From Methylocapsa palsarum (GTDB taxonomy: Bacteria > Pseudomonadota > Alphaproteobacteria > Rhizobiales > Beijerinckiaceae), in assembly GCF_900114285.1 (NCBI RefSeq), contig NZ_FOSN01000009.1:62001-126000 (forward strand): a DNA stretch of 64,000 nt, given 5' to 3'. The position numbers and the translations under genes were made by a program. The notes under the pieces were generated by a model. That model saw only the letters and a program-made list of their open reading frames with translations. It had not been told where the DNA came from and made no database searches. This document shows, piece after piece, positions 43,091 through 62,042 of this stretch (position 1 is the stretch's first letter; the number at the start of each line of letters is the position of its first letter).

Positions 43091-43375
43091 TCAGCAAAGA
43101 AAGCTGGATTTGAACTGCGCCAGCTTCTCCGGGGTGTCGAGGCCGCGCTCCACCGGCCACGCGTTTTGATGAAACCAGGAGTTCACCTCGCGCGTGCGTT
43201 CCTTGCCTTGAAGAAACCAGCGTTTGGAGCCGTCAGGAGAGACAATTGCCGGCCCATCCTCGCGGTGCACAATGCCGTTATCGATCCACAGCCTCGTGTC
43301 GACGTAGAGATAAAGGCCCGCCTTTCTCGACATGTCGTCCTGGTTGATTTCGTCGACGATCGTGACGTTCGTCAT
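43091..43375 (-). CDS. Small MORN-like/HREDGPA-repeat protein
   Basis: 94-residue soluble protein carrying the motif WIDNGIVHREDGPAIVSPDG, then KRWFLQGKERTREV. This resembles one unit of the antitoxin-like or phage-associated repeat (xxHRxDGPA...W...G) seen in many mobile and phage-borne genes. A Trp-rich C-terminus follows (NSWFHQNAWPVERG). The start is placed at ATG 43375; the frame runs further upstream to 43525 without similar sequence. The ribosome-binding site is weak. Function unknown. Confidence 0.6.
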   Translation of the reverse strand: MTNVTIVDEINQDDMSRKAGLYLYVDTRLWIDNGIVHREDGPAIVSPDGSKRWFLQGKERTREVNSWFHQNAWPVERGLDTPEKLAQFKSSFLC

Positions 43376-43478: not shown

Positions 43479-43796
43479 TTAATCTTCGCCGCTCGACCTT
43501 CTTTGGACGAGAGCTTTCTCAACAATAGCCCGACAGTTCAGGAGACGTCGATATTCATCGGCGTTCACCATGACCATCTCCGCGGAAGGCGCTCCCTCCA
43601 GCGGCGCCGCGGCGGCGTCGAGGGCTTCGCACAGGGCTTTTTCGAGTTGATAGATCTGCTCGCTTGCCCGCTCGAGATAGGGAACAGGATTCGAAACGAC
43701 ATTGGCCTCGTGCAAGGCGTCCAAGGTCAACAGCGATGTGAACTGGCGCACCGTTTCACGCTTTTTCTTTCCGAACTCGTGCTCGATAACGCTCAT
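43479..43796 (-). CDS. Helical small protein of unknown function
   Basis: 105-residue soluble protein beginning MSVIEHEFGKKKRETVRQFT and predicted helical throughout, with ERASEQIYQLEKALCEALD and EYRRLLNCRAIVEKALVQ. A strong ribosome-binding site (GAGAGGAGAT) precedes the ATG at 43796. I do not recognise the family. It lies 137 nt downstream of the aminotransferase-like gene on the same strand. The larger frame around it (to 44402) is a shadow. Confidence 0.6.
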   Translation of the reverse strand: MSVIEHEFGKKKRETVRQFTSLLTLDALHEANVVSNPVPYLERASEQIYQLEKALCEALDAAAAPLEGAPSAEMVMVNADEYRRLLNCRAIVEKALVQRRSSGED

Positions 43797-43933: not shown

Positions 43934-45034
43934 TCAGGCGCCCTCGCCCGCGCAGACCTCGGCGAGGATGTCGACGGCCAAATCGATGTCGCTCTCCTCG
44001 ACGCTCAGAGGCGGAAAGATGCCGAGAACGGACCCCATGACGCGCGTCAGAAGCCCCCGTTCGGCGAGTTTGGCGCGTAACGGTTCGGCCTCGCGGGCGC
44101 AGAGAAGTCCCTGCATGAGGCCGACGCCGCGCAGCCCTTTGAACATGTCGCTGCGTTGACGGACGAGCGCGCCGAGCCTGTCCTCGAGCCGCCAGGCCCG
44201 GTTCTGCACGCGTTCTTCGAATCCCGGCGCCGACAGGACGTCCATCATCGCATGCGCCGCGGCGATCGCCGCGGGATCGGCTGGCGGAAGGTTCGCTGGC
44301 GCGCCCTGCGCGACTTTTCGCGTGGCGACTAGAGCCGCCAGCGGCAAGGAGTTTCCAAGCCCACGCGTCGAGATCATCAAATCCGGGGTGACGCCGGTCC
44401 ATTCGTGAGCCCAGACCATCCCGGAGCGCCCCAGGCCGCAGAACGTTTCGTCGAAGGCGAGAACGAGCCCGTATTCGTCCGCCATTTCGCGCAGTCCCGC
44501 GAGCAATCTTCCGTCGAGCACGTCGAGGCCGTTCCCGGTCCTGACCGGCGCAATGAGAACCCCGGCCGTGTTCGGCTTGATCGCTCCGGACAAGGCGCCA
44601 AGATCGTCCGTCTGAAGGAGCGTGACCTCGTCGTCGCCCTCAAGACCCGCAGGCGCCGGGCCGGAAGCGGCGGAGGCGCCCGCGCAGACGATCAGGCGCC
44701 GCCGCTTGGGGCGCCCGGCAGCCTGGTGCGAGCGGCGGATGGCGTCGATCGCGGTCCTCCACGCCACGGCCTCGGAGGGCAGCAGGAACGCCCGGTCGCC
44801 GAAAGACAGAGCGATCAGCTTTTCGATGAGGCCTCCGGCGCTTCCTGGCGCCTCCTGATCGAGGCCGGATGAAAGGGCCGCGGCGTCGGGCGGATCAGCG
44901 GCTTGCGCCACGCTCGCCTCAACTCCGCCGAACGCGCCAGAAAAATCGAACTGGCGCGCTTCGTACGCGCCATCGTCTGAGGGCGGCTCGAGAATTTCGG
45001 CGGCCCCGGGTGGAGATGGCGATGAGCCCGACAT
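43934..45034 (-). CDS. Degenerate class III aminotransferase-like protein (PLP lysine replaced)
   Basis: 366-residue protein with the fold of ornithine/acetylornithine aminotransferases. AFDETFCGLGRSGMVWAHEW matches the family's DEVQTGxGRTG motif. In the following motif, normally K-G-L-G-N-G, the protein has STRGLGNSLPLAALVA: the PLP-binding Lys is Arg224 (codon CGT at 44363-44365 on the complement). The glycine-rich SGTEA phosphate motif is also altered (LLPSEAVAW), and the N-terminal domain is short and rich in Ala, Ser and Pro. RGVGLMQGLLC near the end is normal. I infer a pseudoenzyme or non-catalytic paralog. The ATG at 45034 has AGGA 5 nt upstream; a GTG at 45094 does not. Confidence 0.75.
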   Translation of the reverse strand: MSGSSPSPPGAAEILEPPSDDGAYEARQFDFSGAFGGVEASVAQAADPPDAAALSSGLDQEAPGSAGGLIEKLIALSFGDRAFLLPSEAVAWRTAIDAIRRSHQAAGRPKRRRLIVCAGASAASGPAPAGLEGDDEVTLLQTDDLGALSGAIKPNTAGVLIAPVRTGNGLDVLDGRLLAGLREMADEYGLVLAFDETFCGLGRSGMVWAHEWTGVTPDLMISTRGLGNSLPLAALVATRKVAQGAPANLPPADPAAIAAAHAMMDVLSAPGFEERVQNRAWRLEDRLGALVRQRSDMFKGLRGVGLMQGLLCAREAEPLRAKLAERGLLTRVMGSVLGIFPPLSVEESDIDLAVDILAEVCAGEGA

Positions 45035-45111
45035 GTTTCCTGCGGTTCCTGAGAGATTTCCCTGCGGTTCCTCGAAAGCAGCCGCCGTCAACACGAATCG
45101 AGAAAATTGCG

Positions 45112-46050
45112 CTATCCCGCTTTTCTCGACGTTCTCGGCTTTGCGGCCGGCTGCTTCGGCGCGGCGGCCTTCGGCGGTCCTTTCCCTGTGATCGGAAGCA
45201 GCATTTCGCCCTGACCTTCCATTTTCCTGCGCGGCTTTTTCGATTTTGAAGGGGGAGCCGTTTTCGGCTCGGCGGCGAGGCTGCGCTTGAGCGCCTCCAT
45301 CAAGTTGATGACGTTTGGATTTTCCGGGGAGGCGGCCTTGATTTGCTTTGCCGGCGCTCCGGCCTGTTTGGACCTCAGCATCGCGACCATGGCCTCTTCG
45401 TAGCGGTCCTTGAACTGCGAGGGTTCGAAATCAGCGGTCTTTGAGTCGAGGATGTGCTCCGCCAGTTTCAGCATGTCCGGCGGAATGACGAGATCGGGAA
45501 GATCGCCAAAATAGAGGGAGGCGTCGCGGATCTCATAGGCGAAGCGCAGCATCACGCCCAGAAGGCCTTTGTCCCAGGGCTGTAGCATCATGACGCGCTC
45601 GCGCTTGGCGAGCGTCACCCGGCCGATGGCGACCATGCCCTTGCCGCGCATGGCCTCGCGGATCACGGCAAAGGCGTCCTGTCCGACGCGGTCGTCTGGA
45701 ACGAGATAATACGGACTCTCAAGGAAGCGCTCGTCGATCTGGACGCGCGGAACGAAACTGTCAATGTCGATGGTATGGTTGCTCTCGATGGCGATCGCGT
45801 CGATGTCCTCGTCATCGACGGCGACATAGGTATTCTTGGCGATTTCAAAGCCCCGGCCTTTGTCCGCCGTCTCCACGACCTCCCCGGTTTCCTCATCGAC
45901 CATCTGCTGTTTCAGCCGGTTGCCGGTCTTCCTGTTGATCTGCTTGAACGCCACGCGCTCGGTGGAAGACGCCGCGCTATAGAGCGCGATCGGACAGGAC
46001 ACGAGCGAGAGCTTGAGATAGCCCTTCCAGTAAGGACGAGACGGGGCCAT
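45112..46050 (-). CDS. ku: Ku protein for non-homologous end joining
   Basis: Binds broken DNA ends as a homodimer and recruits ligase D. The 312-residue protein has the bacterial Ku core: MAPSRPYWKGYLKLSLVSCP, VAFKQINRKTGNRLKQQMVD, AKNTYVAVDDEDIDAIAIES, YYLVPDDRVGQDAFAVIREA and ERVMMLQPWDKGLLGVMLRF. A basic, Lys/Pro-rich C-terminal tail (KTAPPSKSKKPRRK) follows, usual for DNA and LigD contact. The start at 46050 is where homology begins. No ligD gene is in this window. Confidence 0.95.
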   Translation of the reverse strand: MAPSRPYWKGYLKLSLVSCPIALYSAASSTERVAFKQINRKTGNRLKQQMVDEETGEVVETADKGRGFEIAKNTYVAVDDEDIDAIAIESNHTIDIDSFVPRVQIDERFLESPYYLVPDDRVGQDAFAVIREAMRGKGMVAIGRVTLAKRERVMMLQPWDKGLLGVMLRFAYEIRDASLYFGDLPDLVIPPDMLKLAEHILDSKTADFEPSQFKDRYEEAMVAMLRSKQAGAPAKQIKAASPENPNVINLMEALKRSLAAEPKTAPPSKSKKPRRKMEGQGEMLLPITGKGPPKAAAPKQPAAKPRTSRKAG

Positions 46051-46463
46051 TGGGCGCTCCTGCAACGAAAGGCCGCAATAGTCTGAGCGCTTCGGCGGAA
46101 GAGTCAATCGCCTCTCCAGCGAGGGCGACAACGTTGGACTGAGGCCGTGCCGGGTTGGCTCCGGGAGCCGATCGTTACTGTCCTTGCGGACCTGAGGCCA
46201 AGCTCTATGAGCTTGAGCGTAGAAGCCAGAAACGTTGACCGCGAAATTTCGCTAAAAGGCGGCTCTCTCATCGAGCCGCTTGCGCCCGTCGGCCGCAATT
46301 CTCCGCTCGCCGGTTGCTGGGTTGAAGCGCTTCGACCGGGACCGCGCGTTCGAGGAACGACGCGCGGCGTTCGGATTCCCGTCCCGATCGTTGCACAGCT
46401 CTTTGTGTTTGCGGCGGCGCTCCTGCCGGCCGCTCCGGGCGAAAAAACAGCCTGATGTTGGTT
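46051..46463. other. Gap between Ku and DUF3597 genes
   Basis: Neither strand shows a credible gene; a plus-strand frame at 46147-46455 has the composition of a shadow and no ribosome-binding site. The first part must contain the ku promoter on the minus strand. Confidence 0.35.
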
Positions 46464-47039: not shown

Positions 47040-47372
47040 TCAGGCGACCGGCGGCTTGCCGTCCGGAGTGGCCTTGTCGATGGCGGCCGGCAGATGCTGA
47101 GCCAGGTAATCAGCGGCCTTGTCGAGCGGGATCCCGGTCGACGCGGCGATTTCCTTCAGTTTCTCGGAGCCTAGCGCCTGTTTGATATCGTCGGCGCTGA
47201 TCGGCAGATTGGGGCCGGTGCTGATCCACGATTTGACCTGCTGGCCATAGCCGGTTTTCTCGAGTTCCGCGACGACTCCGTCAAAGCCGCCGTGCTTCTC
47301 GAGGTATCCCTTGACTACGGATAAAGCCTCGGCGCCGACGACGCCGCCCAGAATTCCCTGCAACCACCCCAT
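47040..47372 (-). CDS. YidB-family protein (DUF937)
   Basis: 110-residue protein starting MGWLQGILGGVVGAEALSVV. The family core is GVVAELEKTGYGQQVKSWIS, then PISADDIKQALGSEKLKEIA, ending PAAIDKATPDGKPP. YidB is a small soluble protein of unknown function conserved in proteobacteria. The ATG at 47372 follows AAGGAGAAAC; an upstream in-frame extension to 47573 has no homology. Confidence 0.88.
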   Translation of the reverse strand: MGWLQGILGGVVGAEALSVVKGYLEKHGGFDGVVAELEKTGYGQQVKSWISTGPNLPISADDIKQALGSEKLKEIAASTGIPLDKAADYLAQHLPAAIDKATPDGKPPVA

Positions 47373-47717
47373 ATGTTTCTCCTTCTTCGAAAAGAGCCGC
47401 CCGACCCTTGTAGGCTCGAACAAGCAAGGCGCCGCATCTGATCCGCAGATATCTCCAGGCCGGCGTTTCCTATAACATGAGATCCTACAACATTTGGCCA
47501 GGCCGGGATGATCAAGCGGGACGATCAAGATTGTGGTCGTCAGGCAAACCTGACCCGGGCGATGCCAGATCACACTATCCCGAAAGCGCCAATGCGCAAA
47601 GTCTTCCCGGGGTGAGCATCAGGACCGCGGCGGGCTGCAAGACGCTGGGCGCGCTGTTACGCTCACGGTTAATCCCATGGGTTTGAAGAATTTGCTGATA
47701 TGTAAAGGATTGTAGAT
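47373..47717. other. Divergent gap upstream of the L,D-transpeptidase
   Basis: No gene is seen. AATTTGCTGATATGTAAAGGA close to 47690-47710 may hold the promoter and ribosome-binding site (AAAGGATTG) of the transpeptidase gene. Confidence 0.35.
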
Positions 47718-61604: not shown

Positions 61605-62042
61605 TTGCCGGTGAACCAGCACCGGAATCCTGGAGTGCGTCAGAACCTTGACCGTCTCGCTGCCGAGCACGAGGGCGGCGACGCCGCGACGACCATGCGA
61701 GGCCATGACGATGAGGTCGCAGCCCTTGGACGCGGCGGCGTCGATGATGCCCTGATAGGGGTGCTCATGTTCGACGTGGATCGTTTCGCAGGCGACGCCG
61801 GCCGCCTTCGCCACTTGCGCCGCGGCGGCGAGAATTTTCCCGGTGTGTTCGCGCATGCGCGCTTCATAGAGCGCGGGCGTATCCTCGACCATCTCCGCAT
61901 TGGCGGTGAAGATGCGAAACGGCGCCACGACCGTCAGCACAATCACTTTCGCCCCGATCTCCTTGGCGAAGGCGACGCCATGTTCAACAGCCTTCCCGGC
62001 GAGTTCCGATCCGTCCGTGGGAATCAGGATATTGGCGTACAT
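61602..62042 (-). CDS. Universal stress protein UspA family
   Basis: 146-residue single-domain Usp. It has MYANILIPTDGSELAGKAVE at the N-terminus and the ATP-binding motif at the end (VMASHGRRGVAALVLGSETV, then LTHSRIPVLVHRQ; GRRG-x9-GS pattern). Such proteins bind ATP and respond to starvation, redox or envelope stress. GGGGAG lies before the ATG at 62042. The stop codon TAG falls at the edge of the adjoining repeat element (copy H). Confidence 0.93.
   Translation of the reverse strand: MYANILIPTDGSELAGKAVEHGVAFAKEIGAKVIVLTVVAPFRIFTANAEMVEDTPALYEARMREHTGKILAAAAQVAKAAGVACETIHVEHEHPYQGIIDAAASKGCDLIVMASHGRRGVAALVLGSETVKVLTHSRIPVLVHRQ

Follow-up and report, generated by a model that had tools for sequence, protein, structure and literature searches.

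The closest profiles to the protein described here are those of acetylornithine aminotransferase, ArgD (TIGR00707/PRK01278), a class III aminotransferase of fold type I in which PLP is held as a Schiff base on a lysine. In PLP enzymes an Asp-Glu pair holds the pyridine ring, and the SG[TA]EA motif binds the phosphate. To our knowledge, there are few fold-type I proteins that lack the lysine and have a conserved second life. One precedent is LCB1 (SPTLC1) of serine palmitoyltransferase, a lysine-less subunit working with an active partner, LCB2 (PMC3794620). In the sugar 3-dehydratases E1, ColD and SpnQ, His takes the place of the lysine and PMP is bound in a catalytic protein (PMC8987622). No report of a bacterial class III example without the lysine was apparent from the titles and abstract beginnings of the open-access PubMed Central papers listed on the subject.

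Here we analysed a stretch of 64,000 nucleotides from Methylocapsa palsarum (the window; positions 62,001 to 126,000 of contig NZ_FOSN01000009.1). An earlier note on it had described a class III aminotransferase whose PLP lysine is replaced by arginine, and both parts of this description were confirmed. The open reading frame is present at 43934-45034 on the reverse strand, as are its sites named below, the two small genes next to it and the Ku gene, and encodes an ArgD-derived class III aminotransferase homologue of 366 amino acids without the PLP lysine. It scores 143.9 bits against Pfam Aminotran_3 (PF00202; curated cut-off 30.5), which is its sole Pfam match, and the place of the Schiff-base lysine is taken by Arg224 (codon CGT, 44363-44365). 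The best NCBIfam model is PRK01278, acetylornithine transaminase, with 197.6 bits and thus under its cut-off of 372; the score for TIGR00707 (138.2 bits) is far under the curated cut-off of 410.05. A GTG at 45094 is a possible alternative to the ATG at 45034, and in 21/22 orthologs a Met-Ser start coincides with the position of this ATG, the ortholog starts having been chosen by a script that preferred an ATG near the equivalent place. The genome (4.1 Mb, 78 contigs) contains seven further places matching class III aminotransferases, among them an intact ArgD at C26:33749-34861, which has the lysine and matches the ArgD models.

When the 22 orthologs are aligned with ArgD-like proteins, Lys occupies the PLP-lysine column in 29/29 ArgD-like rows and in 0/22 orthologs, which have His (18), Arg (2) or Tyr (2). 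The ArgD-like rows comprise the genome's own ArgD plus, from each of 28 relatives, the best match that is not an ortholog; 13 of the 29, the own ArgD included, were scanned against NCBIfam, and every one hits ArgD models with 1e-100 or better. The earlier note had held that orthologs with Lys at this position would point to sequencing error or recent decay, and had proposed a search for orthologs sharing the Arg: two of the 22 have Arg and none has Lys. Its quotation of KGLGNG as the family motif was loose, the ArgD consensus being KGIGGG, and the Lys-to-Arg change itself stands. The alterations it had reported in the SGTEA motif and the N-terminal domain were likewise seen, with SEAVA at residues 87-91 (44762-44776) in place of SG[TA]EA and an ArgD-like character in residues 1-68 only in a short DF stretch. 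Within this variable N terminus, DFSG at residues 30-33 (44936-44947) is invariant in the 21 rows that have letters there.

The losses extend well beyond the lysine. In the numbering of the own ArgD, Gly96 of SG[TA]EA (replaced by Glu in 21 orthologs and Ala in 1), Phe129 (Ser 11, Ala 9, gap 2), Glu181 (Ala 21, Pro 1), Gln217 (Phe in 14), Thr272 (Pro 10, Ser 10, Leu 2) and Arg362 (Gly in 20) are gone in all 22 orthologs, and His130 is gone in 21 (Asp in 16), with one His retained. In this family the lost positions hold PLP and substrate, by binding the phosphate, stacking on the ring or contacting the substrate carboxylate; Phe129-His130 is the aromatic-His pair and Thr272 the Thr of the other subunit, and the substrate-binding Arg is lost too. 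Altogether 45 of the 125 near-invariant ArgD columns (at least 93% conserved) are kept in the orthologs. Asp195-Glu196, corresponding to Asp214-Glu215 of the own ArgD, is retained in 22/22 and lies in a block strongly conserved among the orthologs (residues 194-212, FDETFCGLGRSGMVWAHEW, 44399-44455); the GxGRxG loop, Pro-Asp and the C-terminal glycines are also retained. In addition, 44 positions that are invariant among the orthologs, for example, Trp92, Arg93, Cys117, Trp208, Trp281 and Asp285, carry a residue that is found in fewer than half of the ArgD rows, which suggests a new constraint.

The designation as a probable pseudoenzyme is supported by these replacements of pocket residues in all or nearly all orthologs, none of which has the lysine. 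Very probably, it has no covalently attached PLP and is inactive in transamination. PLP binding, which the earlier note had allowed for, is unlikely because the phosphate, ring-stacking and substrate-carboxylate positions are gone as well as the lysine, though the Asp-Glu pair is kept; the invariance of this pair could nevertheless reflect continued binding of a PLP-like ligand.

The same residues bear on the possibility of a working enzyme that holds PMP non-covalently and uses His or Arg as the base, in the manner of E1, ColD and SpnQ. The His of 18/22 orthologs, the retained Asp195-Glu196 and the known combination of His-for-Lys with PMP in those dehydratases (PMC8987622) are in its favour. 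However, variation among His, Arg and Tyr would be odd for a catalytic base, the phosphate-binding and ring-stacking positions are lost, and Aminotran_3 alone was found by the Pfam scan. The combination of His-for-Lys with an intact PMP pocket that characterizes E1 and ColD is absent from the window protein, and we regard such an activity as very unlikely.

The gene is narrowly distributed. At E <= 1e-50, 20 of the 298 genomes sampled from the family have it, and these belong to 3 of the 43 genera covered; carriers make up 2/15 genomes of its own genus, 12/39 of Methylocystis and 8/10 of Methylosinus. Samples of the order (397 genomes) and phylum (398 genomes) yielded no carrier besides the own genome. 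The E limits in these searches were 1e-50 or 1e-55 and hide more distant relatives; since genomes were searched as samples, further carriers are possible. Two loci (L057 and L058) on the same contigs as others (L044 and L046) were dropped before counting. No relative was found in viral contigs scanned with two patterns. The gene pmoA is present in 21/22 carrier genomes, the exception being a draft of about 140 contigs (G260), and also in 30/42 non-carriers (p 0.025, and 0.067 in the 52 better genomes, both uncorrected for relatedness); the own genus holds both pmoA-bearing and pmoA-less species.

In a tree with 28 ArgD rows (a truncated ArgD, L033, was counted in the alignment and excluded here), the 22 orthologs form one side of a single 100/100 branch. 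Their Nei-Gojobori dN/dS has a median of 0.29 and a maximum of 0.49 over 220 non-independent pairs with dS of 0.05-1.5, values up to 0.49 occurring between close pairs; for the window gene paired with L010, its nearest relative, dN is 0.24 and dS 0.87. No internal stop codon was found in any of the 22 ortholog matches. One copy, in a draft genome (L061), lacks the N terminus.

A slowly decaying, functionless copy of ArgD could account for the patchy presence (2/15, 12/39 and 8/10 genomes of the three genera), the fast evolution and the copy without an N terminus. The absence of internal stops in 22 matches and the median dN/dS of 0.29 speak against it, and we disfavour it as highly improbable. 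Because the lysine is absent from all 22 orthologs, which form one clade under purifying selection, the gene is, as judged from its sequences, an old and maintained pseudoenzyme, and reflects neither decay nor a sequencing error. Catalytic residues that are lost in common among orthologs under selection, as seen here, are a mark of a pseudoenzyme. The family is thus real, conserved in some alphaproteobacterial methanotrophs, and probably misnamed: the automatic name of a Methylosinus copy, WP_161915212.1, is "aminotransferase class III-fold pyridoxal phosphate-dependent enzyme," which is probably misleading.

That copy belongs to Methylosinus sp. C49, where the gene lies on the 325-kb repABC plasmid pMSC49a (L119), about 9 kb from repABC; the G114 region matches pMSC49a without a difference for 20,000 bases. 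Plasmids may also carry several of the other Methylosinus copies, whose contigs measure 90-843 kb. The copy of one Methylocystis genome (G125, L073) clusters with Methylosinus in the tree and is located at a different place, which is probably the result of a transfer between genera. At the locus of the nearest relative (L063, G010), the ortholog adjoins genes that by eye resemble phage tail genes.

An AlphaFold2 model built from 4 rows was too poor for use (mean pLDDT 45). A model from 15 rows, of which 12 were other class III proteins, had a mean pLDDT of 76, with values below 50 at residues 1-26, 35-62, 121-125 and 225-229, the last of these segments sitting just past Arg224. Compared with Thermotoga maritima acetylornithine aminotransferase (Foldseek, VIA-align), this model gave a Z of 34.5 and an rmsd of 3.4 over 341 aligned residues. 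Because class III rows shaped the model, we read this result as compatibility rather than as an independent fold; an ArgD-type fold is likely kept.

Such a fold would suit a regulatory subunit, that is, the dead half of a dimer whose other half is the true ArgD or a different class III aminotransferase, and which alters the activity or stability of that partner. The ArgD models are the closest profiles, the modelled fold is compatible with that of ArgD, the own genome has an intact ArgD, and LCB1 offers a precedent for a lysine-less fold-type I subunit with an active partner. By contrast, residues 1-68 are the most altered part, and this is where class III enzymes swap segments between subunits. 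Moreover, a class III match was found in 60/60 relatives, ArgD-like proteins being general, whereas the pseudoenzyme is patchy. On balance a regulatory subunit of this kind seems rather unlikely.

In 20/22 orthologs, a sigma-54-type element, TGGC-N7-TTGC, lies upstream of the gene or of the gene directly upstream. It was found in 9/9 Methylosinus-type loci (eight from Methylosinus and that of G125), with its first base 50-94 nt ahead of the ATG; when these loci are aligned, all eight specified bases are invariant, and there is no invariant column upstream of them. It was also found in 11/11 Methylocystis-type loci, starting 570-949 nt before the ATG, with a gene of the AHSA1/SRPBCC family between element and pseudoenzyme gene. 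Because the element precedes the SRPBCC gene in Methylocystis, read-through into the pseudoenzyme gene is an assumption there; the leader that follows it resembles the Methylosinus leader by eye. The background, counted on both strands over 756,000 nt and with the ortholog sites included, was 68 sites (0.009 per 100 nt), and none of 29 argD genes has an element within 100 nt. The 20 elements do not represent 20 independent events because the loci are related. The element stays with the gene although neighbourhoods change, and its conservation is a further argument against decay. In the 1500 nt upstream of the window gene and of its nearest relative (L010), no TGGC-N7-TTGC was found, L010 having just two poor matches, and a search around the window gene found no sigma-70-like site.

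The RpoN motif given for Methylosinus sporium 5 is YGGCR-N6-TTGC (PMC12403871). The ortholog element has equal spacing, and its TGGC is followed by T, C or G, where that motif has R. For possible activators we considered 19 element-bearing loci, each within a region of 12-20 kb; one more (L062) joined the sigma-54 test only. A NifA site (TGT-N10/11-ACA, no more than 300 nt upstream of the -24 element) was found in 1/19 loci and not in the other 18, which is about chance given an expectation of 0.07 per 300 nt. The same scan was positive before nifH and nifB of a Methylocystis genome (G220) and before nifH of the own genome. Because the sites are at chance level, yet the scan detects known nif genes, the putative sigma-54 activator of the pseudoenzyme gene is probably not NifA. 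NtrC sites, scanned with a consensus, were found at 0/19 promoters, and no shared activator motif stood out at the 19 loci. The word aminotransferase is absent from the main text of a paper on Methylosinus nif promoters (PMC12727197). The predicted sigma-54-type promoter of the relatives is new here. Its conservation makes the expression condition directly testable in culturable Methylosinus strains.

Two small genes follow the pseudoenzyme gene downstream in the window. The first (43479-43796) encodes a protein of 105 amino acids, for which the earlier note had suggested a complex with the pseudoenzyme. Its distribution over 64 genomes (both genes in 13, pseudoenzyme only in 9, small protein only in 16, neither in 26) rules it out as a specific, dedicated partner: the two are adjacent and no strict pair, lying side by side only in the window among the compared loci, and ten Methylosinus genomes yielded no homolog of the small protein. 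Homologs of the 105-aa protein are present in 29/64 genomes; in Methylocystis they occur in nif islands, lying 4.4-5.2 kb from a nifH copy in 10 of the 17 Methylocystis genomes that have one. The second gene (43091-43375) encodes a 94-aa protein without a Pfam match, and with a homolog in a Methylocystis nif island (L101). Within the own genus, two genomes (L102 and L105) have homologs of both proteins 4-7 kb apart, the L102 homolog of the 94-aa protein again having no Pfam match; the two proteins recur together in all four genomes, from two genera, where both were seen. Because both downstream genes have nif-island homologs, the three window genes together resemble a fragment of an accessory gene set from a nif island.

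Seven Methylocystis genomes (G220, G295, G266, G300, G253, G232 and G278) have the pseudoenzyme gene itself and a nifH copy about 19-20 kb apart on one contig, and at another locus (L068) the gene is 6.6 kb from nifA. In G125, gene and nifH share a contig and are far apart, and nifH of the own genome is on a contig other than that of the window. Several Methylocystis genomes have two nifH copies about 27-30 kb apart, and in G220 (L100, L101) both copies have a sigma-54 element and upstream NifA sites. Carriage of the pseudoenzyme gene was not correlated with nifH in the 64 genomes (both in 17, pseudoenzyme only in 5, nifH only in 26, neither in 16; Fisher p 0.27). Because of this and of the 18/19 loci without a NifA site, the nitrogen link is circumstantial, and we regard it as suggestive.

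As a clue to function, a conserved operon was considered and set aside, as neighbourhoods mostly differ outside Methylocystis. Upstream in the window, with a gap of 77 nt, lies a gene for a Ku DNA-end-binding protein (45112-46131), which probably does not belong with it. A Ku homolog (39%) is found about 7 kb from the ortholog in one Methylosinus locus (L065), and homologs (54-55%) of the YidB-like protein of window 47040-47573 are found within about 9 kb of orthologs in two Methylosinus loci (L074, L080); these recurrences may be chance or remnant synteny. Downstream of the pseudoenzyme gene in Methylocystis lies a gene for a 216-aa protein (F11; L072 10505-11155) with no Pfam or NCBIfam match. 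F11 matches occur in 33/64 genomes, including 18/22 carriers and 15/42 non-carriers (p 0.0006), and none was found in the window genome or in G010.

In our opinion, the best explanation, and a reasonably probable one, is a non-catalytic ArgD paralogue that selection has kept in some alphaproteobacterial methanotrophs for a binding or regulatory role. The protein would act as an ArgD-type dimer by binding a protein or a metabolite, and in Methylosinus and Methylocystis a sigma-54 activator distinct from NifA would turn on its expression. We give this joint proposal of dimeric binding and a non-NifA switch slightly better than an even chance, and a role in a nitrogen-related response somewhat less than that. 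The first candidate for a partner would be the true ArgD of the same cell. A more specific version, in which the sigma-54-switched, lysine-less paralogue either pairs with ArgD in mixed dimers or keeps a metabolite in what was once the cofactor pocket, and thereby couples arginine or lysine synthesis to nitrogen status, is quite unlikely.

By comparison to ArgD, the pseudoenzyme shares the predicted fold, the Asp-Glu pair, the GxGRxG loop with the block after it, and the C-terminal part. It differs in lacking the PLP lysine, the SG[TA]EA motif and the substrate-binding Arg, and its N terminus is shorter and altered. With the E1/ColD/SpnQ dehydratases, 18/22 orthologs share His-for-Lys; those proteins bind PMP and are catalytic, whereas the window protein has Arg and the pocket residues of the orthologs are lost. 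The comparison with LCB1 concerns how such a protein may work: LCB1 is likewise a kept fold-type I paralogue without the PLP lysine (PMC3794620), but it comes from a different subfamily and its active partner is known. If the coupling of amino acid synthesis to nitrogen status through this protein were true, the family would offer, in the class III aminotransferase fold, a bacterial counterpart to dead regulatory subunits of the LCB1 type.
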